Under the pieces are notes generated by a model that saw nothing but the letters and a program-made list of their open reading frames with translations, was not told where the DNA came from and ran no database searches. A stretch of 64,000 nucleotides of DNA from Thiogranum sp. (lineage in GTDB: Bacteria; Pseudomonadota; Gammaproteobacteria; DSM-19610): positions 124,001-188,000 of the forward strand of contig JASBSS010000035.1 of NCBI GenBank assembly GCA_030148805.1. The letters run 5' to 3'. Positions 24,908-41,015 of this stretch are shown piece after piece. The position numbers were made by a program, and so were the translations under genes. The first letter of the stretch is position 1; the number at the start of each line of letters is the position of its first letter.

Positions 24908-25090
24908 GTGCTCTAGCCTGTGCATCTGCACTTATTGGGATCATTCCAGCCGCTTGATGAATCCCGCGAATTCTATCGAGTAATAGATATTAGTTGTTTT
25001 AACTCAGTTAGTTAAGCCCGCCTAGCTGTCCCGCTCGCGGAATGTGCGGGAAGCCAGGAGAGCTGGTTTGGTTTTTGCACTCGGTTGAAC

Positions 25091-26158
25091 ATGACAATGC
25101 CCGACGATCTGTTGCAGGCCTGGCCCGGCCAATTGCTGGAAACGCTCAACACGGCGGTGATTCTGCTCGACGACGCCCTGCGTCTGACGTACCTGAATCC
25201 AGCGGCGGAGAATCTGTTCGAAATCAGCCGGCGCCAGGTCAGTGGCCAGTACTGGCCGGGAATGTTGCAGGCCGAGAAGTCGCTCGGCGACCGCTTGCGC
25301 GGTGCGCTGCACGCCCAGGAGCCGTTCACCGAACGCGAATTGGAGCTGCACACCGCCTACGGCCGGCACATCACCGTCGACTGCACCGTGACACCCCTGA
25401 GTAACGGAGATTTGCTGTTGGAAATAGTACGGGTAGACAGGCACTTGCGAATCGCGCACGAAGAGCACCTGTTGACGCAACAACGGGCCGCGCGCGATCT
25501 GATGCGCGGCATGGCCCATGAGATCAAGAACCCGCTGGGTGGCTTGCGCGGCGCGGCGCAGTTGCTCGAAAGCGAGCTCGAACAACCGGAGCTGACCGAA
25601 TACACCCAGGTGATCATCGGCGAGGCCGATCGTTTGCGCAATCTCGTCGATCGCATGCTCGGCCCCAACAATGTGCCCGACAACCGTACGGTGAACATCC
25701 ACCAGGTGATCGAGCATGTGCGCAGTCTGGTCGACGCCGAAGCGCATCCCGGTCTGGAGCTCAAGCGCGAATACGACCCCAGTATCCCCGAGCTGCAGGC
25801 CGACGCCGAGCTGCTGGTGCAGGCGCTGCTCAATCTGGTGCGCAACGCCGCCCAGGCGGGCGCGCGCTGCATCACTTTGCGCAGTCGCACCCAACGACAG
25901 TTCACCATAGGCCACACCCGCTACAAGCTGGTCATACGCCTGGACGTTATCGATGACGGTCCCGGTATCGCTCCCGACATGCAAAACAAGATCTTCTATC
26001 CCATGGTCAGCGGCCGCCCCGACGGGACCGGGCTGGGGTTGTCGATCGCCCAGTCGTTGATCAATCAACACAACGGAATCATCGAGTTCACCAGTGAACC
26101 GGGAAACACCCGGTTCACGGTTCTTTTGCCTTTGGAGGTCGCGAATGACACAAGCTGA
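25091..26158 (+). CDS. glnL: Nitrogen-regulation sensor kinase NtrB
   Basis: A 355-residue cytoplasmic kinase/phosphatase that sets the phosphorylation of NtrC under PII control. An N-terminal PAS domain (LNTAVILLDDALRLTYLNPAAENLF) is followed by the H-box AHEIKNPLGG with His143, the N-box LLNLVRNAAQA and the ATP-lid DDGPGIAP / GTGLGLSI. No membrane helix. Start codons ATG 25091 and 25097 and TTG 25085 are all close; none has a strong ribosome site. It overlaps ntrC by 14 bases. Confidence 0.95.
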   Translation: MTMPDDLLQAWPGQLLETLNTAVILLDDALRLTYLNPAAENLFEISRRQVSGQYWPGMLQAEKSLGDRLRGALHAQEPFTERELELHTAYGRHITVDCTVTPLSNGDLLLEIVRVDRHLRIAHEEHLLTQQRAARDLMRGMAHEIKNPLGGLRGAAQLLESELEQPELTEYTQVIIGEADRLRNLVDRMLGPNNVPDNRTVNIHQVIEHVRSLVDAEAHPGLELKREYDPSIPELQADAELLVQALLNLVRNAAQAGARCITLRSRTQRQFTIGHTRYKLVIRLDVIDDGPGIAPDMQNKIFYPMVSGRPDGTGLGLSIAQSLINQHNGIIEFTSEPGNTRFTVLLPLEVANDTS

Positions 26159-27557
26159 AAGCGTCTGGGTGATTGACGACGATCAGTCCATACGCTGGGT
26201 ATTGGAGAAAGCCCTGGAAAAAGCCAGTATGGACGTGAAGAGTTTCGCCTCCGCCAGCGGGATCCTGGAAACCCTGGAGCGGGGTCAGCCCGATGCGCTG
26301 ATTACCGACGTGCGGATGCCGGGCATGGATGGTTTCGAGCTGCTGGGGAAGATCCAACAGCGGTATCCGGATCTTCCGGTGATCATCATCACCGCGCATT
26401 CCGATCTCGACAGCGCGGTGACCGCCTACAAAGGCGGCGCGTTCGAATACCTGCCCAAACCCTTCGATGTCCAGGAAGCCGTCGAGCTCACCCGGCGCGC
26501 GGTCGATCACAGCCGTGCCAACAAACACGACGCCCACGCCGCCGCCAAGGAGGAGGTGCCGGAAATCATCGGCGAGGCACCGGCGATGCAGGAAGTGTTT
26601 CGCGCCATCGGCAGGTTGTCACGCTCGAACATCACGGTATTGATCAACGGCGAATCGGGCACTGGCAAGGAGCTGGTGGCGCGGGCGCTGCATCGTCACA
26701 GCCCACGGGCCGACAAGCCGTTCGTGGCGCTGAACATGGCCGCCATTCCGCGCGACCTGCTGGAATCGGAACTGTTCGGTCACGAGCGCGGTGCCTTTAC
26801 CGGCGCGCAGACCCAGCGGGTCGGTCGCTTCGAGCAGTCCGACGGCGGCACCCTGTTTCTGGACGAAATCGGCGACATGCCGGCGGAGATGCAGACGCGC
26901 CTGCTGCGGGTGCTTTCCGACGGCGAGTTCTATCGTGTCGGCGGGCATACACCGATAAAGGTCAATGTGCGCATCATTGCCGCCACGCACCAGAATCTGG
27001 AACAACGCGTCAAGGAAGGCAGCTTCCGTGAAGACCTGTTCCACCGCCTGAACGTGATCCGCATCCACTTGCCGGCGCTGCGCGAGCGGCGTGAGGATAT
27101 CGGTCTGCTGATGCGTCACTTCCTGAACAGCGCGGCGCGCGAACTCAACGTCGAGAGCAAGACCTTGCTGGCGGAGACCGCGGCGCATCTCAAGCAGCTC
27201 GACTGGCCGGGGAATGTCCGGCAAGTGGAGAATCTGTGCCGTTGGCTGACGGTCATGGCTTCCGGCAAGGAAGTCCGTATCGACGATTTGCCAGAAGAGC
27301 TTCACCAGCGCCAGAGCGGCGAACTGGCGACCGGACAGGGTTGGGAAGTGGCGCTGAAAAACTGGGCCGATCTGCAGTTGGCCGACGGGCGTGAGGCGCT
27401 GCTCGACGAAGCCCTGCCCGCGTTCGAACGCATTATGATCGAATCGGCGCTGGCGCGTACCGGCGGTCGGCGGCAGGACGCGGCGCGCCTGCTCGGTTGG
27501 GGGAGAAACACGCTGACCAGGAAGATAAAAGAACTGGCGATGAACGTGGCGCGCTAA
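26145..27557 (+). CDS. glnG: Nitrogen-regulation response regulator NtrC
   Basis: A 470-residue sigma-54 activator. The receiver domain has acidic residues IDDD and the phospho-acceptor Asp55 in ITDVRMPG. The AAA+ domain has Walker A GESGTGKE, the sigma-54 contact loop GAFTGA and Walker [13 protein letters not shown] Fis-type helix-turn-helix ([20 protein letters not shown]) closes the protein. The ATG follows TTTGGAGG within the end of ntrB. It should act at the glnA and ntrB sites in this window. Convergent with mshI, only two bases apart. Confidence 0.97.
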
Positions 27558-27559
27558 GC

Positions 27560-28486
27560 CTAGAGTTGTGCCGGTTCACAGCGCAAGGCCGCGCCGATGG
27601 CCAACAGGCAATGCGCCAGTTCGTCCTCCTCGATGCCGGCCGGGATGTCGACGACCCCGGCGATATCCAGGACCTGCACCTCGATCCCGGTCAGTTGCAG
27701 CAACTGCTCGGTAAGCGCCCCGACGCCGCGCGGCGATGCGCACAGCGTCAATTGAGTGATGGGTGCCTGCTGGAAGTGACGGTCGTAATAATCCATCGAG
27801 CGTTGCAGTTCCAAGGCCAGTCGTTCGGCCAGTGCGGAGGAGTCGAGCAGTTGCGACCAGCCGAATTCCATGCCCCGGGCCAGATATAGCGTCGCGTCGC
27901 GGGTCAAGGTGATCAGGCCGTGGTTGGCGCCAAAGTGCAACAGTGCCTGCCCGTTGGCATCCTGCGGCACCCGCGCGGCGAGGTTGCGCAATGCCAGCTC
28001 CGGTATGTCGATCACGCTCAGCTCCACGCCCGCCTCCTGCAACAGCTGGGCGCGCTCCTCCACCACCGAGGCACGCGAGACCACGACGTACAGGCTCTCC
28101 TGCACGTTGCGCGCGCCACTGGGTGGTACGTCGAACACGTCCAGGACGGCGTCGTCGATATGGAAATCGATCAGATCGCGCACCTTCCAGCGAATGGCGG
28201 CTTTCAGCTCAGCCGCCGGCACCTCGGGCGCCTCCACCAACAGCAGCTGATAGTCTTGCGCCGCGAGCAACGTGGAACAGCGGGTTTTGTCCAGCCGGTA
28301 CTGGGCCACGGTCTTCTTCAGCAGCGCCGCCAGGCTCTGCTCACCTTCCAGCGGATGAAAGGCGCAATACTCCAGCACCGGTTTTTCGAGTTTGGCGTGG
28401 TCGACACAGGCCAGGGCGACGCCCTCGTCATCGGCCACCAGAGCACAGAGGCGACTGCTACGGGACTTGCTGTTGAGTCGAAACAC
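27560..28486 (-). CDS. mshI: MSHA biogenesis protein MshI (PilM-like)
   Basis: A 308-residue actin-fold protein of the PilM/MshI type, expected on the inner face of the membrane where it would bind the N-terminus of the PilN-like subunit. It has the family run of strands LCALVADDEGVALACVD, a central WKVRDLIDFHIDDAVLDVF and a late LELQRSMDYYDRHF. The GTG at 28486, after AAGGATCGAGG, gives a normal N-terminus; the frame stays open far upstream over the adhesin gene. In most MSHA operons mshI is first; here it is last. Confidence 0.8.
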   Translation of the reverse strand: MFRLNSKSRSSRLCALVADDEGVALACVDHAKLEKPVLEYCAFHPLEGEQSLAALLKKTVAQYRLDKTRCSTLLAAQDYQLLLVEAPEVPAAELKAAIRWKVRDLIDFHIDDAVLDVFDVPPSGARNVQESLYVVVSRASVVEERAQLLQEAGVELSVIDIPELALRNLAARVPQDANGQALLHFGANHGLITLTRDATLYLARGMEFGWSQLLDSSALAERLALELQRSMDYYDRHFQQAPITQLTLCASPRGVGALTEQLLQLTGIEVQVLDIAGVVDIPAGIEEDELAHCLLAIGAALRCEPAQL

Positions 28487-28539
28487 CCTCGATCCTTTGT
28501 CGATAAGTGCGCCAAGCGTCGCCGATGTTCGCGCCGCTG

Positions 28540-29886
28540 TCAATTCGCCACCTGTTCGCGCCAGCGCACCAGCGAGACCCCGCTGGCGCCGCCCCCGCCG
28601 CTCAGATAGACGTCGTTGAGATTTTCGCCCCCGGGCGCCGCCGCGCCGATGTAACTCCAGCTGACCCCGTCGTAGTGGATCAGGTTCCAGCCGTTGCGCT
28701 GCACCCCGACGGCCCAGCAGTCGGTCGGCAGGCTGCAGTGAACACCCTTGAGGTCGGCACGATGCTTGCCGCTTTTGAGCGAATTTTCTGTCCAACCGCT
28801 ACCGTTCCAATGCACCAGGACATAGTTGTTTTTTTCCCGGTCGCCGACCGCCCAGCAGTCGTCCACGGCCGCGCAGGACACTGCATTGAGGTTGGCGCGC
28901 GCCTTCTTCGGGGCCGGCTCCGTGACCGGCGACCAGGTGCCGCCGCTGTAACGCACAAAGAAATAATCGTTGCCGGAAAGCGCGCCCACGGCCCAACATT
29001 GATCGTCGGCCGGACAGTCGATGCCGTTGAGCGCGGACGCGCCGAACCCGGACGGATAGACCTGGGCCCAGGACAAGGAAGCATCGCGCACCGCACCCCA
29101 CTGGGACACCCCGAAGCAGGTGGCGCTGGTACAGGCCACATCGTTGAACTGGTTGAAGGGCATGAAGACCCAGGTATCCTGCCAGTTGGCGCCGTTCCAG
29201 CGTAACGCGGCTCCGAGTTGAAAGAAGGGTCCGATGGCCCGGTAGCCCACCGCCTGACAGGCCGTCGCCGTCAGCGGCGGGCAGGCGACGCCCTGGAGAT
29301 GTCGATTGGGGGTCACCGAGTACGGCGACCAGGCGGCGCCGTTCCAATGCAGCACGACGCTGTTGTCCCCGACCGCCCAGCAATCGTTGGCGTCGACGCA
29401 ATGCACGCTGTTGAGGTTTTGGGTGGTGACGCTGGCCACGGCGTTCCAGCTGGTGCCGTTCCAGCGCAGCATGGCGCCGTTGTCGCCGACCGCCCAGCCG
29501 TCGCTGCCGGCCAGCCGCAGATCCGCCTGCACCGTGCGTGCGGCGCTGCTCGCCCCCGGACTCAGGGGGGTGATGGTCGCACGGACCTCGATCCGGCAAT
29601 CGCCGCCGACCAGGAACGCATTGGTGAGCTCGAAACTGCCGCGGCCGACCGCGATGGAGCCCGATGGGCTGAGCGCGACACAGGCCGTGCCCGCGGCGTA
29701 GAGCGAGGAGGCGTATTCAACCCCCGATTCCGCCAGGAACAACGCCTCGACGGTATCCTGCTGCGCCGCGGTGTCGATCAAACCGGAGGCGCTCAAACGG
29801 TTCAGGGTCTGCGCCAGCGCCGCCATGACGACCAGAATGAACACCGCCCCGAGCAGGGTCACGACCCCTTGCTGCGAGCGGTTCAT
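28540..29886 (-). CDS. Minor pilin fused to cysteine-repeat propeller (MshP-like)
   Basis: A 448-residue protein. Residues 1-120 look like a PilX/MshP minor pilin: an uncleaved-type start QQGVVTLLGAVFILVVMAAL, one hydrophobic helix, then FLAESGVEYASSLYAAG. From about 125 to the end there are seven to eight repeats of roughly 40-50 residues with the core L-x2-V-x-C-x4-DCWAVG and a later LxWNGxxW. The first repeat lacks its opening strand and the last lacks CWAVG, as in a ring-closed beta propeller. Paired cysteines suggest disulfides in each blade. A tip adhesin is the likely role. ATG overlaps the stop of the upstream pilin gene. Confidence 0.7.
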   Translation of the reverse strand: MNRSQQGVVTLLGAVFILVVMAALAQTLNRLSASGLIDTAAQQDTVEALFLAESGVEYASSLYAAGTACVALSPSGSIAVGRGSFELTNAFLVGGDCRIEVRATITPLSPGASSAARTVQADLRLAGSDGWAVGDNGAMLRWNGTSWNAVASVTTQNLNSVHCVDANDCWAVGDNSVVLHWNGAAWSPYSVTPNRHLQGVACPPLTATACQAVGYRAIGPFFQLGAALRWNGANWQDTWVFMPFNQFNDVACTSATCFGVSQWGAVRDASLSWAQVYPSGFGASALNGIDCPADDQCWAVGALSGNDYFFVRYSGGTWSPVTEPAPKKARANLNAVSCAAVDDCWAVGDREKNNYVLVHWNGSGWTENSLKSGKHRADLKGVHCSLPTDCWAVGVQRNGWNLIHYDGVSWSYIGAAAPGGENLNDVYLSGGGGASGVSLVRWREQVAN

Positions 29887-30398
29887 GAGCGGTTCCTCAA
29901 TGCGACCCGGCCGCGTTGAGCGTAACGGTTGCCGTTGTCGAGCACCACTTCGAACTCGATGTAGGCGACATCCGCCGTGGTGCTGGCAGGCAGCCCGTCG
30001 CTGCGGTAATAGCTGAAACTGAGGCTGCTGAGCTGGTCGGCCAGGGTGAAGACGCCGCCCGGCAGGGTATCGTAGCTGATCTGCAGCAGCGGTGGCGCGG
30101 CGCTGAGCGAAACCGTGACGCCGTCGGTCTTGGTGAAGGTGATACTGTCGCCGGCGGTATTCACCGGGGTGGCGATGGCGAACACGCCGCCGCTGTTGTC
30201 GATAGCGCGCAGCTCCCTGGCGATGCGTTCGCTGGTGTAGCGCAGATTGTTGACCGTGTACAGCGCCGCATGGGTGTTGTTGTAGGCACGCGCGCCGTTG
30301 CTCAGATAAGGCGCGGCCACCGCCGCGAGCAGACCGAGCACGCTGAGGCCGATGACCAGCTCGATCAAACTGAAGCCTTGCAGCCGGCGGCGCGCCAT
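29883..30398 (-). CDS. Type IV minor pilin, MshO position
   Basis: A 171-residue prepilin. The cleavage site is intact: RRRLQG-FSLIELVIGLSVLGLL, with Glu5 of the mature protein. One hydrophobic helix is followed by a beta-rich head (DGVTVSLSAAPPLLQISYD). It probably forms part of the priming or tip complex of the MSHA pilus. It overlaps both neighbours by a few bases. Confidence 0.8.
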   Translation of the reverse strand: MARRRLQGFSLIELVIGLSVLGLLAAVAAPYLSNGARAYNNTHAALYTVNNLRYTSERIARELRAIDNSGGVFAIATPVNTAGDSITFTKTDGVTVSLSAAPPLLQISYDTLPGGVFTLADQLSSLSFSYYRSDGLPASTTADVAYIEFEVVLDNGNRYAQRGRVALRNRS

Positions 30399-30808
30399 CA
30401 GTAGTCCACCAGAACAAAAGTGACGGCGGCCCGCGGCTGGCCGGCCTGGTCCACGCTCACAGCCACCTGCTTGCACACGGCGGTACCGGGACAGGCGGCG
30501 CCGGCAAAGGGGGTGATGGTGGTGGTGCGGGTGTAGCCGGCGTAGTCGCCGGTGAGATTTTCCACCAGGTTGGTGGAAACCTCGGCATCGGCGTAGCCGC
30601 GATTACGGCGTATCGCCAGCAGGGTCTCGGCCCGCTCCTGCGCCAACTGGGTCGCGGTCTGAATGCGCTCGTCGCCCAACAGACCGATGCCCGCCTGACT
30701 GAACAGGCTGAACAGCGGCACCGAGGCGATGGCGACGATCAGCAGCACCGCCACCAGTTCGAGCAGGGTGAAGCCGCGCGCCGCCGGCTGTGGGGCGTAG
30801 CGCTTCAT
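30398..30808 (-). CDS. Type IV minor pilin, MshD position
   Basis: A 136-residue prepilin with cleavage site AARG-FTLLELVAVLLIVAIA. The head has the ERAETLLAIRRNRGYAD helix typical of PilV/GspI-like proteins and a CPGTAVCKQ cysteine pair. The ATG overlaps the stop of the preceding pilin gene, and its own TGA overlaps the next ATG. Confidence 0.8.
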   Translation of the reverse strand: MKRYAPQPAARGFTLLELVAVLLIVAIASVPLFSLFSQAGIGLLGDERIQTATQLAQERAETLLAIRRNRGYADAEVSTNLVENLTGDYAGYTRTTTITPFAGAACPGTAVCKQVAVSVDQAGQPRAAVTFVLVDY

Positions 30809-31269
30809 TTCACCTTGACCCAGCCGCTGACGGGCGAGACGCTGACCGTGGCGCTGTTGCCGGCGGCGCTGAGAACCCAGTCCCGCGGGGCGGTGATGAG
30901 CGCGCCGCTGGGCTCCAGGGGACGACCCAGGCTGTCGTAGTCGAGATTGGTGCCGCTCAAGGTGACACCGTCTGCCAGCTGGAAGCTTTGGCGGATGCCC
31001 TGGGGATCGGTGATCACGGCGCCGCCGGCGGTGATGGCGTAGCCGGTGGCGCTCTGGACTTCGACCCGCAGCCGGCGACCCTGACTGAGCGCCAGGCTCT
31101 GGGCGTGGCGCAGCGCGCGGGCCACTTCCTCGGCCTGCGGCCCCAGGGTGGCGCCGCCCGGCGACCAGCGCACGGCCAAGGTGGCGCCGAGCATCCCCAT
31201 CAGCAGCACAACCGCGACCAGCTCAAGGAGGGTGAAGCCGTTTTCTCGTTTGCCGCAACTGGGGCGCAT
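30805..31269 (-). CDS. Type IV minor pilin, GspH/FimT-like (MshC position)
   Basis: A 154-residue prepilin with cleavage site KRENG-FTLLELVAVVLLMGML. The pattern EVARALRHAQSLALSQGRRLRVEV is the GspH/FimT signature. It should be a low-abundance pilin near the pilus tip. The ATG at 31269 gives a normal 18-residue leader; the frame is open further upstream without a ribosome site. Confidence 0.82.
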   Translation of the reverse strand: MRPSCGKRENGFTLLELVAVVLLMGMLGATLAVRWSPGGATLGPQAEEVARALRHAQSLALSQGRRLRVEVQSATGYAITAGGAVITDPQGIRQSFQLADGVTLSGTNLDYDSLGRPLEPSGALITAPRDWVLSAAGNSATVSVSPVSGWVKVK

Positions 31270-31336
31270 TTCCCTGCCCGAAACAAAAAGGGGCGGGCAT
31301 CCGCCCACCCCGCCTGGTGTGCGTGTGACCGTTGGC

Positions 31337-31711
31337 CTACAGGATGCCACCGACGCAGCCGACCGTGTCGGTCGCGGCGGACGTCGCCGTCTGGCAGGTG
31401 GTGTCCGTATACGTGCCGATGGTATAGGTCTGATTGTTGATCACCACGTCGATGCCCGTGCCGCCGGCGTTCATTGAGACCTGTTGACCGCCGACAAAGT
31501 TGATCAGCTGATTGAGGCGCGGCAACGCTCTGAGTTCGGCGATGGCCATGGCGTGTCCGGTGCGCACGGCGGCGATCGAACCGTTCTGCGCGGCAGTGAG
31601 CGCGTCCTGGGACATGTTGACGAAGCGCGGCACCGCCATGGCGCCCAGCAGTGCCAGGATGACCAGCACCGCGACCAGTTCGATTAGAGTAAAACCGCCA
31701 TGTTTTTTCAT
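31337..31711 (-). CDS. mshA: Major MSHA-type pilin
   Basis: A 124-residue prepilin with a short basic leader MKKHGG cut before FTLIELVAVLVILALLGAMAVPRFVNM, the MshA/MshB pattern. A C-terminal disulfide loop (CQTATSAATDTVGC) closes the head. AGGAG lies before the ATG. An AT-rich gap of 268 bases upstream suggests its own strong promoter, fitting a major subunit. Only one such gene is seen, whereas many MSHA operons have both mshB and mshA. Confidence 0.82.
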   Translation of the reverse strand: MKKHGGFTLIELVAVLVILALLGAMAVPRFVNMSQDALTAAQNGSIAAVRTGHAMAIAELRALPRLNQLINFVGGQQVSMNAGGTGIDVVINNQTYTIGTYTDTTCQTATSAATDTVGCVGGIL

Positions 31712-31979: not shown

Positions 31980-33200
31980 CTAGTGCAGCGCCACGCTGGC
32001 CAGATCCCACATCGGCAGGAAAATCCCGGCGGCGAGCAGGAACACCAGCCCGGCCAACACCAGCGTCAGGGTGGGTTCGATCGAGGCGCTGAGTTTTTCC
32101 ACCGCGTAATCCACTTCGGTGTCGTAATAGTCGGCGACTTCGCGTAGCAGCTCGTCGGTGGCCCCGGACTCTTCCCCCACTTGCAGCATCTGCAGCACCA
32201 GCGGGTCGAAAATGCCGGCGCTGGCGGCCGTCCTGCTGAGCGACTCGCCGCGCTCGATCCCATCGCGCATCGACAGCACGCGCTCCTGGATATAGTCGTT
32301 GCCCAGCGCGCGCGCCACCACCGACAGGCCGGTGACGATGGGGATGCCGGAAGCCTGCACCAGGGCGAACAGGCGGCTGAAGCGCGCCAGCGTCGCCCGA
32401 TACAGCACCCGGCCGATCAGCGGCAGCCGCAATTGCAGTTTATGCCAGCGATAACGCCCGTCTTCGGTGTTCAGGTAGAGGCGCGTGCCCACCGTCGCGG
32501 CGACCACCAGCGCCAGCAGCAATTCCCAGCGATGGACGGTGAAATCGGAGATTGCCACCAGGATGCGGGTGGGCAGCGGCAGGTCGGCGCCGAATTGGGC
32601 GAACATATTGGCGAACGCCGGGACCACCACCACATTGATGATGCCGATGGCGGCAACAATGGCCAGCAGCACGAACACCGGATAGCGGGTCGCCGACTTC
32701 ACCCGGTCCCGGGTGGTCTTCTCCCGCTGCAGATAGGTCGCCAGTTGACGGAAGATCAGGTCGAGCTGACCGCTGGTTTCACCCACCCTGACCAGGCTGA
32801 CGTAGAAGGCCGAGAAGATCTCCGGATATTGAGCCAGCGAGCTGGACAGATCGCGGCCCGACTCGAGGCTCTGCATCACCCCGCCAAGGCTGGTGGCCAG
32901 GGTGCGGTTGGCGCAATTGGCGCTCAGCCCGCCCAGCGCGCTGAGTATCGGGACACCGGCCTTGAGCAGGCTGTGCATTTGGCGGCTGAATTGGATCAGA
33001 TCGGACAGTTGCACCCGCGGCGGAAACAGCTCGCCGATGTCCATCGACATGCCGCTGGTCGGGGCCACCGGCTGGATATCCACCGGTGTCAGGCCACCCT
33101 CGATCAGGCGGGTCGCCGCGAGATCGCTGCTCGCGGCCTCGATGACGCCCTCGATGGCGTCGCCGCGCTGGCCGCGGGCTTTGTAGTGGAAAGAGGGCAT
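31980..33200 (-). CDS. mshG: MSHA platform protein MshG (GspF-like)
   Basis: A 406-residue inner-membrane platform of the PilC/GspF family. It has two repeated cytoplasmic domains (LIQFSRQMHSLLKAGVPIL and LARFSRLFALVQASGIPIV) and three membrane helices, the last near the C-terminus (LVLAGLVFLLAAGIFLPMW). It couples ATPase motion to pilin assembly. It follows mshE by six bases. Confidence 0.93.
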   Translation of the reverse strand: MPSFHYKARGQRGDAIEGVIEAASSDLAATRLIEGGLTPVDIQPVAPTSGMSMDIGELFPPRVQLSDLIQFSRQMHSLLKAGVPILSALGGLSANCANRTLATSLGGVMQSLESGRDLSSSLAQYPEIFSAFYVSLVRVGETSGQLDLIFRQLATYLQREKTTRDRVKSATRYPVFVLLAIVAAIGIINVVVVPAFANMFAQFGADLPLPTRILVAISDFTVHRWELLLALVVAATVGTRLYLNTEDGRYRWHKLQLRLPLIGRVLYRATLARFSRLFALVQASGIPIVTGLSVVARALGNDYIQERVLSMRDGIERGESLSRTAASAGIFDPLVLQMLQVGEESGATDELLREVADYYDTEVDYAVEKLSASIEPTLTLVLAGLVFLLAAGIFLPMWDLASVALH

Positions 33201-33206
33201 GGCCGG

Positions 33207-34916
33207 CTAGTCGCCCGCGCCGCCCAGGCGCATGACTTCTTCCAGGCTGGTCAGGCCCTCGCGGGCGTAGTCCAGCGCGTTGAGGATCAGCGGGCGATAG
33301 CCGGTCTGGGCGCGCGCCGCGCGCTCGAAATCTGCGGGGTTGTTGCGCCGCAGCGCGTCGGCCAGGGTGTAGTCGATTTCCAGCAGCTCGTAGACCCCCA
33401 TGCGACCGTGATAGCCAGTGTGATTGCATTGATTGCAACCCTCGCCGCGCTGAAAATCTGCGGTGGCGGCATCTTCGCCGTCGAGGTTTTTCAGCCAGGC
33501 GGTTTCACTGGCGTTGGGTGCCTGCGGCTGCTTGCAGTGGGCGCACAAGCGTCGAATCAGTCGCTGTGCCATGATCGCCTGAGTCGAGGCCGCCACCAGA
33601 TACGGTTCTACACCCATGTCGATCAAACGCATGGCAGTGCTCACCGCGTCATTGGTATGTAACGTCGACAGCACCAGGTGCCCGGTCAGGGCGGCGCGCA
33701 GGGCGATTTCTCCGGTCTCCAGGTCGCGCATCTCGCCCACCAGAATGATGTCCGGATCGAGGCGCAAGGCGGAGCGCAGGACGCGCGCGAAGCTCAGATC
33801 GATACGCGGATTGACCTGTACCTGGTTGACGCGGGGCAGCTGATACTCGACCGGATCCTCCACGGTGATGATTTTCTTCTGCGGTTTGTTCAGCTCGCTC
33901 AGGGCCGCATAAAGGGTGGTCGTCTTGCCGCTGCCGGTCGGCCCGGTGACCAGCACCAGCCCGTGCGGCTTGTGGATCAGCGCGCGCAGGCGGGCGAGCA
34001 TCGCCTCGGGCAGACCCAACTGGGGCAGTTTTCTGATCGACGACCCCTGATCGAGCAGACGCATCACGACCGTCTCGCCGGTTTGCGTGGGGATAGTGGC
34101 CAGACGCACGTCGATGTTCTTGTCCAGCACCCGCAGCGTGAAGCGCCCGTCCTGGGGGAGGCGGCGTTCGGAGATGTCGGCATCGGCCATCAGCTTGAGG
34201 CGCGAGACCACCGCCGGCGCGATCCGCGTGTCGTCCATCACGGTTTCGTGCAGCACGCCGTCGATGCGCCGGCGGATGCGCAGCACGTCTTCGTCTGGCT
34301 CGATGTGGATATCCGAGGCGTCGGCGCGTACCGCGTCCTCGAACACGGTCTGGATCAGCCGCACCACCGGCGCATCGCTCTGGCTGCTGGAGGCGCCCAG
34401 CGCGTGCAGATCGAAGGAGCTGTCGGCGAGGTCCTGGCCGACTTCGGTGGCCAGGGTGCGCAGTTGCTCGTGATTCTGGTAGAGCCGGTCGATGTTCTGC
34501 AACAGCATGCTCTCTTTCACGCAGGCGATCTGCACCGGTGATTTCAGAATGCGGACCAATTCATCGAACGCGAAAATATCGGTCGGATCGCCCATGCCCA
34601 CCAAAAGACCCGAGGCCGTTTCCTTGAGTATCAGCGCGCGATAGCGACGCGCATGGGTCTCGGGCAGGCGGCTGACCAGATCCGGGTCCAGATCGAAACG
34701 GCTGAGGTCGATATAAGGGATATCCAGCTGTTCGGAGAGCAGCTGCAGCAGTTTCTCCTCGTCGACGAAGCCGCTCTCGACCAACACCCGGCCCAGCTTG
34801 CGGCCACTCTTTTTCTGTTCGGCCAGCGCTTGCTGCAGCTGGCTCTCGGAAATCATTTTGTGCTCGACCAGCAGGTCGCCGATGCGCACACGTTTGCGAG
34901 AGGGGATGGCTGACAT
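33207..34916 (-). CDS. mshE: MSHA assembly ATPase MshE
   Basis: A 569-residue GspE/PilB-type ATPase. The N-terminal MshEN domain (RIGDLLVEHKMISESQLQQAL) is a known c-di-GMP-binding module in this family. The catalytic half has Walker A GPTGSGKTT, an Asp box, Walker B LDPDIILVGEMRD and a zinc motif CAHC...CNQC. It powers pilus extension. The ATG at 34916 gives the right N-terminus and lies 4 bases after the mshN stop. Confidence 0.95.
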   Translation of the reverse strand: MSAIPSRKRVRIGDLLVEHKMISESQLQQALAEQKKSGRKLGRVLVESGFVDEEKLLQLLSEQLDIPYIDLSRFDLDPDLVSRLPETHARRYRALILKETASGLLVGMGDPTDIFAFDELVRILKSPVQIACVKESMLLQNIDRLYQNHEQLRTLATEVGQDLADSSFDLHALGASSSQSDAPVVRLIQTVFEDAVRADASDIHIEPDEDVLRIRRRIDGVLHETVMDDTRIAPAVVSRLKLMADADISERRLPQDGRFTLRVLDKNIDVRLATIPTQTGETVVMRLLDQGSSIRKLPQLGLPEAMLARLRALIHKPHGLVLVTGPTGSGKTTTLYAALSELNKPQKKIITVEDPVEYQLPRVNQVQVNPRIDLSFARVLRSALRLDPDIILVGEMRDLETGEIALRAALTGHLVLSTLHTNDAVSTAMRLIDMGVEPYLVAASTQAIMAQRLIRRLCAHCKQPQAPNASETAWLKNLDGEDAATADFQRGEGCNQCNHTGYHGRMGVYELLEIDYTLADALRRNNPADFERAARAQTGYRPLILNALDYAREGLTSLEEVMRLGGAGD

Positions 34917-34920
34917 AGTG

Positions 34921-36069
34921 TTATCCCTTGGCCGGCATGGCGTGCGCGTCAAGCGCACGGATGCGTTGTTGGACATAGGCGTCGACCGAAGCCGGTAACG
35001 CATAACGGGCAGCTTCGCGGTAGGCAGCGAGGGCCGCGCCCAAACTTCCGCCATGCTCCAGCGCCACCCCCAAACCGGTCCACCACAGAGCCTGGGCCGG
35101 ATCCAGCTTCAGCGCGGCCTGGTAGGTCTTTGCCGCTTCGCCATAGCGCGCGAGCCGGTTGAACAACTCGGCGCGCAGCGCCAGCGTGCGGGCGTCATGG
35201 CTGCTGTTCACCGGAGCCAGTGCCTCGAGCGCTGCCTGCAAGGCGTTGCGCTGCGCCAGCAACCGCGCGTAGCGCCGCGCCAGGTCCGCGTCTCCCGGAG
35301 TCAGGTTGAGCCCGGCTGCCAGTACCGCTTCCGCTGCGGCGCTATCGCCTCGGGCGACCAGCAGCGCGGACAACTGCAGCCGCGCCCGTTTGTGGGCGGG
35401 TTCGGCCGCGAGCACCGCGGTGAGCAGCCGGCGCGCCGCACGCGGTTGGCGTTCAGCCAGTGATTGCTGCGCCTGATTGAAAAGCGTCGCCGTCTCCTGT
35501 GACGGGTCGGCCGTACTGCGCGCGACGGGAGGCAAGGGCTCCGGTTTCCCGGCTGCGGCGCCTGAAGAGATGGCCGTAGCCGGCGCCGTGCCTGCTGCGA
35601 AGGCACCCGGAGCGGATACCGCCAGGGCGGTTAACGCCGGCAGGGATGAAGCCGAAGCCGAAGCAGACGAAGCAGACGAAGCAGACGAAGCCGGCGCCGA
35701 TGCCGTCTCCCGTGCTGCCGCGACCGTCTGCGTCCGGTGTCGATCGGACGTCGCCGCGTCCGTGGATGTGGCCCCGGCTCGAGACCGGCGACTGTGGGGC
35801 GTTTGCGGCGGCAGCGCCAGGGACAGCGGCTGATGCACGGTGAGAACCGCCTCCGCGGTGCGCTGTCCGGGGTCCTGCCCCTGGCGCAGGAACAGGCCGG
35901 CGAAAAGGATCAGCGCCGCCAGGCCGGCGCCGAAGATCAGGGGATAGGCGATGTCCCTCCTCGCCGCCGGTACCTGCGCCTGCACGCCCCCGACGGCCGC
36001 CAGCGCCAGGTCGCTGTCCGGTCCGTGACGCCGATCCAGGTCACGCAACATTTGATTGATCACGCTCAT
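34921..36069 (-). CDS. mshN: MSHA biogenesis protein MshN (TPR)
   Basis: A 382-residue bitopic membrane protein. It starts MSVINQMLRDLDRRHG, the usual MshN N-terminus, has one membrane helix at about 41-62 and a long Ser/Ala/Pro-rich linker, then tetratricopeptide repeats from about residue 190 (NQAQQSLAERQPRAARRLL). The linker contains a simple Ser/Ala stretch coded by 9-base DNA repeats (35660-35686). It probably joins inner-membrane and outer-membrane parts. It overlaps mshM by four bases. Confidence 0.88.
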   Translation of the reverse strand: MSVINQMLRDLDRRHGPDSDLALAAVGGVQAQVPAARRDIAYPLIFGAGLAALILFAGLFLRQGQDPGQRTAEAVLTVHQPLSLALPPQTPHSRRSRAGATSTDAATSDRHRTQTVAAARETASAPASSASSASSASASASSLPALTALAVSAPGAFAAGTAPATAISSGAAAGKPEPLPPVARSTADPSQETATLFNQAQQSLAERQPRAARRLLTAVLAAEPAHKRARLQLSALLVARGDSAAAEAVLAAGLNLTPGDADLARRYARLLAQRNALQAALEALAPVNSSHDARTLALRAELFNRLARYGEAAKTYQAALKLDPAQALWWTGLGVALEHGGSLGAALAAYREAARYALPASVDAYVQQRIRALDAHAMPAKG

Positions 36070-36977
36070 AGACTGCAGGCCATCATCAGGCTTGCACCGG
36101 TCAACGCCAGCGTCCCGAGCAAGGTAGAGGCCGATTTCACCCAGCGCCGCGCCGGATGCCGGACCGCTTCGGTGTCCCTGAATGCGCTCAGCAGGTGCTT
36201 GCGACTGACGCGCTTTGCGTTGCAGCCGTAGGCGAGCATCAAGGATTTATGACATAGCAGATTGACCAGGCGCGGTACACCGCCGCTGGCTCGATACAGG
36301 CACCTCATGGCACGCCGGTCGTAGAGATCCGCGCCGCGATAACCGGCGATGCTCAAGCGATGGCGCACGTAGCGCTCCAGCGCCCCGGCGTCGAGGGGGC
36401 GCAATTGGTAGGAGAACGCAACTCGCTGCCTGAGCTGGCGGAATTCCTCGCGTTGCAGGCGACGGTCGAGTTCCGGCTGCGCGAACAACACCACTTGCAG
36501 CAGCTTGCGCTTCTCGGTCTCCAGGTTGGTGAGCAGGCGCAGGGCTTCCAGGCTGTCGTCGGGTATGGTCTGGGCCTCGTCGACCACCAGGACCACGCGG
36601 CGACCCTCGGCGCTGTATTGCGCCAAGCGTTCGTAGATCAACTGCAACAGTCTGTGCTGACCAATATTGCGAGCGAACTCGATCCGCAGTTCTCCGGCCA
36701 GCGCCATGCGCAGACCGGTCGGGTTGAGAAATGGGTTGGGGAGATAGGCGGTGACGGCGTGCGCCTGCAACAGGTTCAGCAGTTGCCGGCACAGCAGGGT
36801 TTTTCCGGTGCCGACCTCGCCGGTGACCTTGATGAAACCCTCGCCGTTGTGAAGCGCGACCAGCAGTACGTTGAGCGCCTCCTGATGACTGCCCTGATTA
36901 AAGAAAAAACCGGTATCCGGGGTCAGCGTGAAAGGCGGTTCCGACAACTGAAAATGTTGCAGATACATAACGCTCAA
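36066..36977 (-). CDS. mshM: MSHA biogenesis ATPase MshM (ExeA-like)
   Basis: A 303-residue AAA ATPase of the ExeA/GspA type. It opens with YLQHFQLSEPPFTLTPD, has Walker A GEVGTGKT near residues 53-60 and Walker B VVLVVDEAQ. The C-terminus ends in a single hydrophobic helix. It may help place the secretin through peptidoglycan. A second ATG three codons on (36968) is possible. Confidence 0.92.
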   Translation of the reverse strand: MSVMYLQHFQLSEPPFTLTPDTGFFFNQGSHQEALNVLLVALHNGEGFIKVTGEVGTGKTLLCRQLLNLLQAHAVTAYLPNPFLNPTGLRMALAGELRIEFARNIGQHRLLQLIYERLAQYSAEGRRVVLVVDEAQTIPDDSLEALRLLTNLETEKRKLLQVVLFAQPELDRRLQREEFRQLRQRVAFSYQLRPLDAGALERYVRHRLSIAGYRGADLYDRRAMRCLYRASGGVPRLVNLLCHKSLMLAYGCNAKRVSRKHLLSAFRDTEAVRHPARRWVKSASTLLGTLALTGASLMMACSL

Positions 36978-36983
36978 CCGCCT

Positions 36984-38681
36984 TCACGGCAGATCCATGT
37001 GGCGCACATCACGAAAGCGCTGCTGGGTCTGCTCCAGCTGTGTCGACCAGGCGCGCTCGCTGTCGACGACCACGGGTCGTAACAGAATGACCAGTTCGGT
37101 CTTGTTGGAAACCTTTCGGGTCTGCCGAAACAGGTGTCCGACCAGGGGCAGGTCACCAAGCAGCGGCGTGGCGCTGAGCTCGTCCTGGGTAAGGTCCTGC
37201 ATCAGGCCGCCGATGACCACCACCTGGCCGTTGCGCGCGCGCACCACGGTATCGGATTCCCGAATGGTGCTCGCGGCCAGCGGAAGGTTAAACTGGGTCT
37301 GGGTCGAGATCTTGACCTGCTTGTCGTCCTGTTTGACATCACTGATCGCCGGATGAACGTGTAGCGTGATGCCGCCCTCCTCGTCGATCTGCGGGGTCAC
37401 GTCCAGGGCCACGCCCGAGAAGAAGGGTGTCAGGGTAAGGTCGGCCGACTGATTCTGCACGCCGCTGGCGGTGTCGGTGTTGACGTCGACGTCGGTAATG
37501 AAATACCGATCCGTGCCCACCTTGATAATGGCCTTCTGGTTGTTGACCGTCGACACCCGCGGGCTCGACAGAACCTGCACGTCACCCTGGTTCTTCAACA
37601 GCTCCAGCAGCGCGTCGAAGTCACCGAGATGGGCCTCCAGGGCGAACACGCTGCCCAGTGCGTCGGCGGGCGCATCGTTGATGTTGCGCAGCGGCGCGGC
37701 CAGTCCGGTGCCGAACACACCCGCGGTGAGCTCCCGACTGCCGCCGCGCAGGTCGATCAGCGAACTCCAGTTGATACCTGCCTGAAACTGGTCGTTGAGG
37801 CGGACTTCGACGATTTTCGCTTCGATGATCACCTGCCGGTTCACCGACAGCTGCAGGCTTTCGAGATAATGCTGCACGTCGACCAGCTCGCGCGGCATCG
37901 CGCGAACCAGTACGGTACCGGAAAGCGGGTCGGCGATGATTTTGTGGCCGTCCTCTTCGCCGATCAGCAACCGCAGGGATTTCTCCAGATTGTTCCAGAA
38001 ATCGGTCTCCGAGCGGGTGGTCACCTGAGCGCCGGAAATGGTGTCCTGTTGTTGCTGTTGCGACGGACCGCCGGTTTGGGCGGGCGTGGGGGTCGCGCCG
38101 CGAGCGTTCGCTCCGCTCGTGTTGCCGCCTCCATTGTGGGCCTGGCTCACCTGGCCCGAACTCACCCGGGTTCTGGAGCCGCCCTTGCGTTCGATGTCCA
38201 GGTAGTTGACCTTGAAGACCTGAGAGCGCATCTTCGCCGGAAAGACTTGATAGATGCCCTGGCTGTAACGGTATTCGTAACCGTACACGTCGCGCACCGT
38301 GTCCATGACTTCGGTGGTGGTGACGTTCTTGAGGTTCAGTGTCAAGGTGCCGGAAACGTCGGGATGCACGATCATGTTGTCGCCGGTTCCCTGCACCAGA
38401 CTCATAAAGAATTCGCGCGCCGGCACCTCGTTGACGGATACATCGAATCTGGGCAGCAGTGGGCTCAATGCGCTGTCACCGCCGCTCGGCGACAACAGTG
38501 CCTGTTGTACCTCGGGGGGCGGAGTGGGCGCTGCCGCCGGTGCGGGCGTCTGCCATTCTCGCAGTGTCTGGTGGACCTGGGGAACGTCCGGTCTGTCCTT
38601 CTGCGGCATGGTCTGACAGGCGCCGAGCGACAGCACGGCCATAGAGAGCGCGATGCGCATGCTAGAGAACTTCCTGTTCAC
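36984..38681 (-). CDS. mshL: MSHA secretin MshL
   Basis: A 565-residue outer-membrane secretin. The GTG start overlaps the mshK stop (GTGA). It is a lipoprotein: lipobox LGAC with Cys22. N-domains follow, then a linker rich in Gly, Gln and Pro (NNGGG-like, QQQQQ), and the secretin core with DVTPQIDEEGGITLHVHP and VVIGGLMQDL, ending near VSNKTELVILLRPVVV. It forms the gated ring through which the pilus leaves. Confidence 0.94.
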   Translation of the reverse strand: MNRKFSSMRIALSMAVLSLGACQTMPQKDRPDVPQVHQTLREWQTPAPAAAPTPPPEVQQALLSPSGGDSALSPLLPRFDVSVNEVPAREFFMSLVQGTGDNMIVHPDVSGTLTLNLKNVTTTEVMDTVRDVYGYEYRYSQGIYQVFPAKMRSQVFKVNYLDIERKGGSRTRVSSGQVSQAHNGGGNTSGANARGATPTPAQTGGPSQQQQQDTISGAQVTTRSETDFWNNLEKSLRLLIGEEDGHKIIADPLSGTVLVRAMPRELVDVQHYLESLQLSVNRQVIIEAKIVEVRLNDQFQAGINWSSLIDLRGGSRELTAGVFGTGLAAPLRNINDAPADALGSVFALEAHLGDFDALLELLKNQGDVQVLSSPRVSTVNNQKAIIKVGTDRYFITDVDVNTDTASGVQNQSADLTLTPFFSGVALDVTPQIDEEGGITLHVHPAISDVKQDDKQVKISTQTQFNLPLAASTIRESDTVVRARNGQVVVIGGLMQDLTQDELSATPLLGDLPLVGHLFRQTRKVSNKTELVILLRPVVVDSERAWSTQLEQTQQRFRDVRHMDLP

Positions 38682-39025
38682 GGTGTCACCTTCTTGATAT
38701 TGTCGTTCCACAGGCGCAGCGTCAGTGAACCCTTGCCGGTGCGCAGAACCACGTGAGTGGGCTCGATGCTGAGTACTTTTGCCTCGCCGATGCGCGCGCC
38801 CTCGGTCACGCGCTCGCCATTGATCACCGCGACCCGCCGTTGCGGCGAGGAGAGTATCGATTGCAGTACCCAGGGCGAGGAGCCACCACTGGACGACTCG
38901 AAGAAACGCGTCGGGTCGGTCGGTCGCGTCGGGTCGGTCGGTCGCGTGGGGTCGTGCAGCGCCCAGGCCGGGGCGATGAGCGAACCGTTCAGCAGGTATA
39001 TCGCGAGCTTTGCCAACTTAGGCAT
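38678..39025 (-). CDS. mshK: MSHA biogenesis protein MshK
   Basis: A 115-residue periplasmic protein with a signal peptide (cut after AWA, residue 22). The mature N-terminus has a run of the hexapeptide DPTRPT. The rest, LQSILSSPQRRVAVINGE and VLRTGKGSLTLRLW, is an HlyD/GspC-like beta unit similar to PilP, which docks on the secretin. The ATG at 39025 overlaps mshJ. Confidence 0.8.
   Translation of the reverse strand: MPKLAKLAIYLLNGSLIAPAWALHDPTRPTDPTRPTDPTRFFESSSGGSSPWVLQSILSSPQRRVAVINGERVTEGARIGEAKVLSIEPTHVVLRTGKGSLTLRLWNDNIKKVTP
38907..38956. repeat. 18-base tandem repeat in mshK
   Basis: CGCGTCGGGTCGGTCGGT occurs twice exactly (38907-38924, 38925-38942) with a partial third copy. It encodes DPTRPT units. 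Copy number may vary by slippage without breaking the frame. Confidence 0.8.
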
Positions 39026-39671
39026 CCCCGGCCCCCAGCGTGTATAACTGCAGGCGTGTCTGTGCCTGCGGGTAACCGGTGGATTGAAAATTGATTTGTT
39101 GCCAGAAGAATTTCCACGGCAAGCTTTCCAGTTTCCGCAGATACCGCAGCACCTCAAGGTAATTGCCGTCGATCAGCATGTCGACCTGATAGCGTGTCAG
39201 ACCGGCTGCGTCGTTGTCGCTGGCCTCGGGGGCCACTTGCAGCGGCTCGCTGCTGGCCTTCAAGGAGGCCAGCTTCAAGCCGGAGCTGTTTTCCAGCAGG
39301 CGTTCGAGCACGTGTGCGGCTTGCGACGGCGCGACCAACACGCCCAGCTGACTGACGATTCGCTCATCCAGTGCCGCCAGTTGCGATTGCAGCTGCGCGC
39401 GCCGTTCGCCGCGCGAGCGCAGCAGCTCGTCGCTGTCGCCATAGGAGAGCAAACGGGCGTTCTGGCGCAATGCGTTGAGTTGGGTCTCGAGTTCCGCGAT
39501 ATGGGATTCGGCCACCTGCTGGGCCTTGAAGGCTGGCCGAAGCCACAGGGTATCGATCAACATGAACATGACCGCAATCACGGCGGTCATCAATAACAGG
39601 CGTTCGCGCAACTGCATGGCGTCGATGCGCAGCTGCCAGGCTTGCAGGCGCGATTTGAGCGTCGTTACCAT
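39018..39671 (-). CDS. mshJ: MSHA biogenesis protein MshJ (PilO-like)
   Basis: A 217-residue bitopic inner-membrane protein. It has a short cytoplasmic start, one membrane helix (LLLMTAVIAVMFMLIDTLWL), a coiled coil (about 55-120) and a ferredoxin-like end (LTRYQVDMLIDGNYLEVLRYLRKLE) as in PilO/GspM. It pairs with the PilN-like subunit. The ATG at 39671 overlaps that gene's 3' end. Confidence 0.85.
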   Translation of the reverse strand: MVTTLKSRLQAWQLRIDAMQLRERLLLMTAVIAVMFMLIDTLWLRPAFKAQQVAESHIAELETQLNALRQNARLLSYGDSDELLRSRGERRAQLQSQLAALDERIVSQLGVLVAPSQAAHVLERLLENSSGLKLASLKASSEPLQVAPEASDNDAAGLTRYQVDMLIDGNYLEVLRYLRKLESLPWKFFWQQINFQSTGYPQAQTRLQLYTLGAGDA

Positions 39672-40276
39672 GCGGGCGTCCCCTTGAAATTGCGCAGCAC
39701 GAATTGCAACTGGGGTTGGTCTGAGTCGAGGCGCGTTACCGACACCGTGGCAAAGGACTTCTTGCCGCCCTTCTCGGTGGCCTCCAGTTGTTGTAGATAG
39801 CGGGGCACGAGCCTGGCATCGAGGGCCAGCCCGCGTAACTCGACATGCTGTTCGTTGTCGATGGAAATGCCATCCAGCCACAGGCCGCTCAGGCGAAGCC
39901 CGGCCAGATTTTCGAACCAGGAGGCGAAACCGTTTTCCTGTTGCAGCAACAATTGGTCGAACTGGGTCAACAGACGATTACGCTGATCGATATTGGCGCG
40001 CAGCTCGGAAATCTGCTGGTCGATCGCCGCGGTGTCCGGGGTACGGCGCTTGGCTTCCAGCGTGCTGAGTTGCCCGCTTAGGTGGGCGACCTGTTGTTGC
40101 AACGATTGCGCCGCCTGGTCCATCCCCGCGAGCGTCCAGTGCGCGTGTACCGCGATCGCCAGCAGTAGCAGCGCAACCGCGCCGCCGATCATCAGCAGGG
40201 TGGCGGCGCCGAAGATTTTCTCCTGTTTGCGGAAGACCGGCTGATAGAGATTGATTTGCTGATACATGGCGCTCAT
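39665..40276 (-). CDS. PilN-like MSHA biogenesis protein
   Basis: A 203-residue bitopic membrane protein. The N-terminus MYQQINLYQPVFRKQEKIFGA is the PilN/MshI2 pattern that binds the PilM-like protein. A membrane helix (about 25-45), a coiled coil and a PilN head (LSGLWLDGISIDNEQHVELRGLA) follow. The ATG at 40276 overlaps the stop of the ABC ATPase gene; ATG 40267 is an alternative. Confidence 0.82.
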   Translation of the reverse strand: MSAMYQQINLYQPVFRKQEKIFGAATLLMIGGAVALLLLAIAVHAHWTLAGMDQAAQSLQQQVAHLSGQLSTLEAKRRTPDTAAIDQQISELRANIDQRNRLLTQFDQLLLQQENGFASWFENLAGLRLSGLWLDGISIDNEQHVELRGLALDARLVPRYLQQLEATEKGGKKSFATVSVTRLDSDQPQLQFVLRNFKGTPAW

Positions 40277-41015
40277 GCCGCACTGTGCCATTCATGCTTG
40301 CCGTCGATGGCGCGCAGATAAGCACGCTCCAGGTCATCGGCGTGAAAATGCTCACGGCATTCGCCGCAGCTGCCGACGAAGCGCACGCGGCCCTCGTGGA
40401 GTATCGCCAGCCGGTCACACAGCGCTTCCACGTCGTGCAGCAGATGCGTGGAGAAGAACAGGGTCAGTCCGGGATCCCGGTATTGTTGCAGATAGTCCTT
40501 GAACCGCGCGCGTGCCTGCGGGTCGAGACCGCTCGTCGGTTCGTCCAGCACCAGCAATGATCGCTGGCTGAGAAAGCACGCCGCCAGGCCAAGTTTCTGC
40601 GCCATGCCTTTTGAATAGGTGCGCACCGGGCGCGACAGCGCGGCTGGGTCGAAATCGAGTCGTCCCAGGATCCGCATCGTGGCATCCGGCTGGAGGCGAC
40701 GCCGTGCAGGCTCGCCATGGACTCCAGGAATTCCTGGCCGCTGAGATAATACGGTGGCGTGAAGCGTTCCGGCAGATAGGCCAGATGGCTGCGGGCGGCA
40801 TTGAGGCGGTGCTCGGTGTCAAAAATTTGTATGACGCCCCGTTCGATCTGACAAAAATCCAGCAGTGATCTGATCAGCGTGGTCTTTCCCGCGCCGTTCA
40901 TTCCCATCAGGGCGAAATATTCGCCAGGTTTTACCTGTAGATTTACGTGCTTAAGCACCGACCGGTCCTTGAAGCCCTTATCCAGGCGTTTGATGTCAAT
41001 GGCATTTTTTTGCAT
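40273..41015 (-). pseudogene. ABC transporter ATPase, frameshifted
   Basis: The N-terminal half (from 41015, MQKNAIDIKRLDKGF) has Walker A GMNGAGKT and runs to LHGVASSRMP. The C-terminal half (ending at 40273) is in another frame and has the signature TYSKGMAQKLGLA, Walker B LLVLDEPTSGLDP and the switch His in STHLL. The break is at about 40680-40690; one missing base (or two extra) explains it. All motifs are otherwise intact, so this is a recent mutation or a sequencing error. The stop overlaps the ATG of the pilN-like gene. No permease gene is beside it. ABC ATPases in pilus clusters exist (PilH of Myxococcus). Confidence 0.75.

Follow-up and report, generated by a model that had tools for sequence, protein, structure and literature searches.

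Modular pilins are already known, as is the insertion of a domain into the pilin at the tip of a filament (ComZ, GspK), and the subunit that caps a minor pilin tip complex lacks Glu5 (PMC10191384). In ComZ of Thermus thermophilus, which belongs to a competence pilus and lacks recognised pilin motifs, a DNA-binding beta-solenoid is inserted in a tip pilin, where it separates the last strand from the one before it (PMC6561018). GspK, the minor pseudopilin of the type II secretion system that takes the K position after H-I-J and is proposed to lie at the tip, has an alpha-domain inserted in its pilin sheet. PilB and PilC of Streptococcus sanguinis likewise present an adhesive module (vWA or lectin) on a minor pilin proposed to be at the tip, but the module is grafted via a linker at the C-terminal end (PMC8179133, PMC9934059), and PilC/PilY1 is a non-pilin at the pilus tip with a C-terminal beta-propeller domain (PMC8179133). 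The mannose-sensitive haemagglutinin (MSHA) pili belong to the least characterised type 4 pili of bacteria and were for this reason omitted from a comparison table (PMC10191384); their putative adhesin in Vibrio cholerae is MshQ, without which the pili still retract (PMC7096442). MshQ (DUF6701) is a separate, non-pilin protein, usually of ~900-1800 amino acids, that is encoded after mshP. The present analysis concerns an mshP-like gene at positions 28540-29886 of a 64,000-nucleotide stretch of DNA from Thiogranum sp. (hereafter the window), in which a beta-propeller appears to sit inside the pilin.

In a complete MSHA pilus operon, the gene takes the place of mshP, the last of the minor pilin genes, and we read its product, with a probability of roughly 0.62, as the tip-capping (K-position) minor pilin of the MSHA pilus, carrying an effector domain in a slot of the pilin. 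The open reading frame lies on the reverse strand, with its ATG at 29886, and encodes 448 amino acids, which the AlphaFold2 model arranges as a long N-terminal helix, three pilin strands, propeller blades (127-433), a glycine linker and a separate strand (437-445):

28540..29886, reverse strand: mshP-like minor pilin gene, 448 amino acids, including the propeller insert; its ATG overlaps the mshO stop, and it is the sole copy in the genome
29866..29886, reverse strand: type III leader MNRSQQG; the mature protein starts VVTLL and has no Glu5
29512..29865, reverse strand: pilin module, a long N-terminal helix and three antiparallel strands (residues 83-93, 96-105 and 115-125)
28588..29508, reverse strand: seven-bladed Ycf48-like propeller, residues 127-433
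29437..29508, reverse strand: strands b-c-d of blade 1, residues 127-150, assigned by DSSP
28597..28620, reverse strand: closing strand a1 of blade 1, residues 423-430 (1+3 closure), assigned by DSSP
28579..28596, reverse strand: glycine-rich linker, residues 431-436, with a predicted local distance difference test score (pLDDT) under 50
28543..28578, reverse strand: conserved tail with a W-x-E motif and a predicted strand (437-445), probably the returning last strand of the pilin

The evidence that the propeller is an insertion comes from related proteins. A preliminary description of the gene had the propeller joined to the end of the pilin; instead, it appears to lie inside the pilin, ahead of a conserved last strand, SLVRWREQVAN, as indicated by a relative (G015) with the same pilin and tail but no insert, in which DADLRLAAG reads straight into NSAVTLIRWQEIIAN, and by the occurrence of other cassettes before the same tail. 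Across the genus, the propeller is found in eight genomes, another domain of ~180 residues at the same place in three (G002, G005 and G007) and none in G015, and all of these proteins end with the same W-x-E tail. In more distant gammaproteobacteria, the same slot contains a propeller, beta-rich inserts, or an insert of a second kind, recognisable by SFTGVDQ. In alignments, the short MshP forms (including that of locus L084) stop at the pilin strand preceding the insert and lack the tail. Given the no-insert relative and the common tail, the simplest reading of the DSSP assignment and the alignments is that the slot would precede the last strand of the pilin sheet, directly after the penultimate one.

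Exchange of the cassette is also recorded in the history of the operon. Of the 23 loci compared, nearly all preserve the gene order mshE-G-A-C-D-O-P-I, regardless of the cassette. On a tree of mshE-G-O-D-I, the cassette label requires seven changes, and the well-supported branches alone force at least 5 changes for the propeller, so that cassettes must have changed repeatedly on the operon tree. G015 adjoins two propeller bearers in this tree, a position that suggests a recent loss of the propeller.

In the propeller itself, WAVG-type repeat cores are found at residues 130, 169, 210, 257, 297, 344 and 390, that is, exactly seven rather than the seven to eight repeats counted previously; shuffled sequence gives a mean of 0.02 cores, and 0 of 20,000 shuffles were as good. 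The model of the full protein, built from ten aligned sequences and with a mean pLDDT of 78.6, agrees with this number, DSSP assigning strands b1-c1-d1 (127-150), six complete four-strand blades and the closing strand a1 (423-430). The closed propeller anticipated for structure prediction was thus obtained and no non-propeller fold was predicted. The suggestion that the first and last repeats are complementary is correct insofar as strand 423-430 closes blade 1, but LVRWREQVAN is not a repeat fragment, this tail being common to propeller-less relatives. Alignment with VIA-align yielded a Z of 31.4 over 273 residues against a seven-bladed designed propeller, and Ycf48 ranked first in a Foldseek search. 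At the sequence level, a search of the PDB with the single protein gave no matches; an alignment profile of the family was required, and this retrieved Ycf48 chains at an E of 4e-14. Ycf48/HCF136 shares with the window's propeller its seven blades and this profile relationship, but is a photosystem II assembly factor with no pilin attached. The cysteine-rich character of the repeats is confirmed, 12 of the 14 cysteines forming pairs between strands a and b, in blades 2-7 only (163/169, 202/210, 252/257, 291/297, 338/344 and 384/390), which would give six disulfides; in relatives, the paired positions mostly co-occur (both in 87 blades and one in 12, by a rough pattern count). The earlier statement that the fold differs from that of PilY1 goes too far, as a beta-propeller domain, albeit of another family, is present in PilC/PilY1 as well (PMC8179133).

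The N-terminal part has the features of a pilin. The type III leader ends in Gly and is followed by a hydrophobic helix (MNRSQQG/VVTLLGAVFILVVMA), and residue 5 of the mature protein is Leu, whereas A, C, D and O, the other four pilins of the operon, have Glu5. For the N-terminus of the window's protein, no family in Pfam passes the cut-off, N_methyl and PilX_N included, and PilX_N is seen below threshold in five relatives (best 1.6e-4), which reflects a limit of the models' reach and not of the fold. Foldseek with the model of residues 1-126 alone returned no significant match, only chance ones; when VIA-align was applied to the Foldseek candidates, the first seven rows, from Z 9.7 down to 5.9, were type IV pilins or pseudopilins, the best being Thermus PilA2 (6qvf, Z 9.7), EpsI (Z 8.3) and XcpV (Z 9.7-7.5 for these rows), and the predicted structure of these residues has a helix packed on an antiparallel sheet. 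Furthermore, profile A4 is shared with short MshP proteins adjacent to MshQ: it matches that of L084 (4.5e-6) as well as further short forms. With a pilin module and a domain that is not specific to pili, the protein is a candidate modular pilin; the modular pilin survey (PMC8179133, PMC9934059) required the IPR012902 motif, whose Pfam counterpart N_methyl misses it.

With DUF6701 as a marker, MshQ was found neither in the window's protein nor elsewhere in its genome, nor in the searched genomes of its family, and PF05567 (the PilC/PilY1 domain) is likewise not in the window's protein, the PilY1 of this genome being encoded on another contig (C28). MshQ had been cited merely as comparable in principle; DUF6701, however, is absent from every checked genome with the propeller architecture, and the 12 propeller-type proteins of the class-wide search all lie in genomes lacking it. 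In the canonical operon of L084, by comparison, a DUF6701 gene follows the short mshP, and its product also has PA14 domains. A search of 370 class-wide genomes with an MshP profile gave 62 matching places (22 short and 40 long, some of the long ones ending PGSWRDF and possibly belonging to other pilus systems), and DUF6701 is present in the genomes of 20 of the 22 short MshP-like genes versus 2 of the 40 long ones (Fisher p 5e-12), a count that takes no account of relatedness. This caveat weighs against the proposed role of MshP, as do the following points: one genome (G092), the only such case, has a long, cassette-bearing MshP and DUF6701 close together, ~9 kb apart (C1 379115 and 388552), possibly as an intermediate; the no-insert gene of G015 is taken from a draft genome; and a comparison with GspK by hhalign reached a probability of 16% over 35 N-terminal residues, so that homology is not shown.

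In the mechanism that we propose, the pilin would fold after export and leader cleavage, its tail returning to complete the sheet, while the propeller would close on itself and be stiffened by its six disulfides. MshP, without Glu5, would cap the MshC-D-O complex and start assembly, and would exit first through the MshL secretin; at the tip it would display the propeller, one face of which may bind a surface or a partner. Such binding is suggested by the expected position, by analogy with tip adhesins and by the replacement of the propeller with other domains in an unchanged operon. A single MshP chain would then do the job that elsewhere is split between MshP and the separate adhesin MshQ. 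We infer an adhesive function, a tip location and a ligand; the likely tip location and adhesin-like role put forward earlier appear to be supported. More broadly, MshP-type tip pilins probably serve as a general tool holder, in which the slot between the last two strands takes exchangeable effectors that have been repeatedly swapped, and in which a filled slot makes MshQ dispensable. If so, a large group of MSHA pili has adhesins that present domain-based surveys have missed. In any case, one pilin scaffold accepts different folds at a single site. If MshP holds the adhesin where MshQ is absent, attachment targets become directly testable with purified cassettes and cassette deletions, for which the natural no-insert relative is a model.

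The main rival to the adhesin reading, which we consider unlikely, is that the propeller acts mainly in assembly or docking, capping the priming complex or recruiting a periplasmic or secreted protein without itself being an adhesin. The nearest solved relatives of the propeller are Ycf48 structures bound to a D1 peptide, tip pilins prime assembly, and CofB is an adaptor for CofJ (PMC8179133), all of which would suit such a role. However, G015 retains the operon without the insert and other relatives have unrelated cassettes, so assembly does not depend on any one fold. It is distinctly improbable that the protein is a simple C-terminal fusion of pilin and propeller, with LVRWREQVAN as an eighth, partial repeat: the tail does align with the strand-c segment (LxxW) of the repeats, by eye and in MAFFT, but in the model the seven blades are already closed without the tail, and its assignment as a repeat was rejected since it is found without the propeller in G015 and beside unrelated cassettes. 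A receptor at the tip for DNA uptake, as proposed for ComZ, is very improbable; the insertion topology would be the same as in ComZ (PMC6561018), but the propeller is acidic (net -7, isoelectric point 5.4), as are those of most relatives, and this makes DNA binding less likely. That the domain is decaying or recently shuffled and has no function, as its loss in G015 and its single copy in the genome might suggest, can practically be dismissed given purifying selection (ratio of non-synonymous to synonymous substitution rates ~0.22 for the pilin part, ~0.18 for the propeller, versus a 76%-identical relative) and retention of the propeller by eight or more species of the genus, as well as by several other families.

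Compared with the described systems, the tip-capping MshP proposed here would resemble ComZ in having an insert in a tip pilin without recognised pilin motifs, and differs from it in its Ycf48-like acidic propeller, its MSHA operon and the exchange of cassettes among relatives; its insert also differs from that of GspK. The open-access literature searched yielded neither a pilin into which a propeller is inserted nor a study of how MshP is built, nor any account of the MSHA setting of such an insert, cassette exchange in one slot or the exclusion of MshQ.

The operon runs in the order PilN-like gene, mshK, mshL, mshM, mshN, mshE, mshG, major pilin, mshC, mshD, mshO, mshP-like gene and mshI:

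39665..40291, reverse strand: PilN-like gene
38678..39088, reverse strand: mshK-like gene, T2SSB match
36984..38711, reverse strand: secretin gene mshL
36066..36977, reverse strand: mshM, AAA
34921..36069, reverse strand: mshN, TPR
33207..34970, reverse strand: extension ATPase gene mshE, T2SSE and MshEN domain
31980..33200, reverse strand: platform protein gene mshG, T2SSF
31337..31711, reverse strand: major pilin gene, mshA-like
30805..31350, reverse strand: minor pilin gene in mshC position, GspH family
30398..30808, reverse strand: minor pilin gene in mshD position
29883..30443, reverse strand: minor pilin gene in mshO position, Glu5 present
27560..28660, reverse strand: mshI (PilM-like), start codon uncertain, directly downstream of the mshP-like gene in the expected mshQ spot

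The mshP-like gene thus follows mshA, C, D and O in an operon with MshE, G, L, M and N, and this position, together with the modelled N-terminus, bears out the original assignment as an MSHA minor pilin. Close relatives carry the label Thiogranum. Convergent with the end of the operon, genes for an NtrB/NtrC-like kinase and sigma-54 regulator are located at 25088-27557 on the forward strand, and a similar pair also adjoins mshI in several relatives.

Several minor observations concern the slot and its cassettes. In G015, the MshP of locus L009 (1501-1911) lacks the propeller in frame, and in another relative (G016) short GCCGGC-like stretches are present at both edges of the insert, a possible route of deletion. 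Ahead of the W-x-E tail, L066, L068, L069, L070 and L108 have another exchangeable insert, whose SFTGVDQ-like core is conserved. Pfam named no domain in the cassette of L010 and gave none that is credible for L066 and L068. Long MshP/PilX-like matches in L112, L114, L079 and L128 end in (P)GSWRDF or similar, which raises the possibility that PilX-type minor pilins in general have a W-R-D/E tail.

The search for CWAVG-type repeats with pilin-type N-termini, as originally suggested, showed that the architecture is not isolated: a propeller of this type is found on an MshP-like pilin in 12 of the 370 gammaproteobacterial genomes, and WAVG propellers on pilin-like N-termini also occur in Patescibacteria. 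In Legionellaceae and three other genomes (L039 5230-6906, L106, L113 and L143), a longer pilin module is followed by a WAVG propeller, that of L039 being in an MSHA-like operon and those of L106 and L113 following other minor pilin genes. The patescibacterial proteins (Parcubacteria, Uhrbacteria and others; L023, L024, L027 and L031) are of ~1000-1580 amino acids and have long, cysteine-free WAVG arrays behind pilin-like N-termini, from which it appears that the pairing of a pilin with a WAVG propeller may have arisen more than once.
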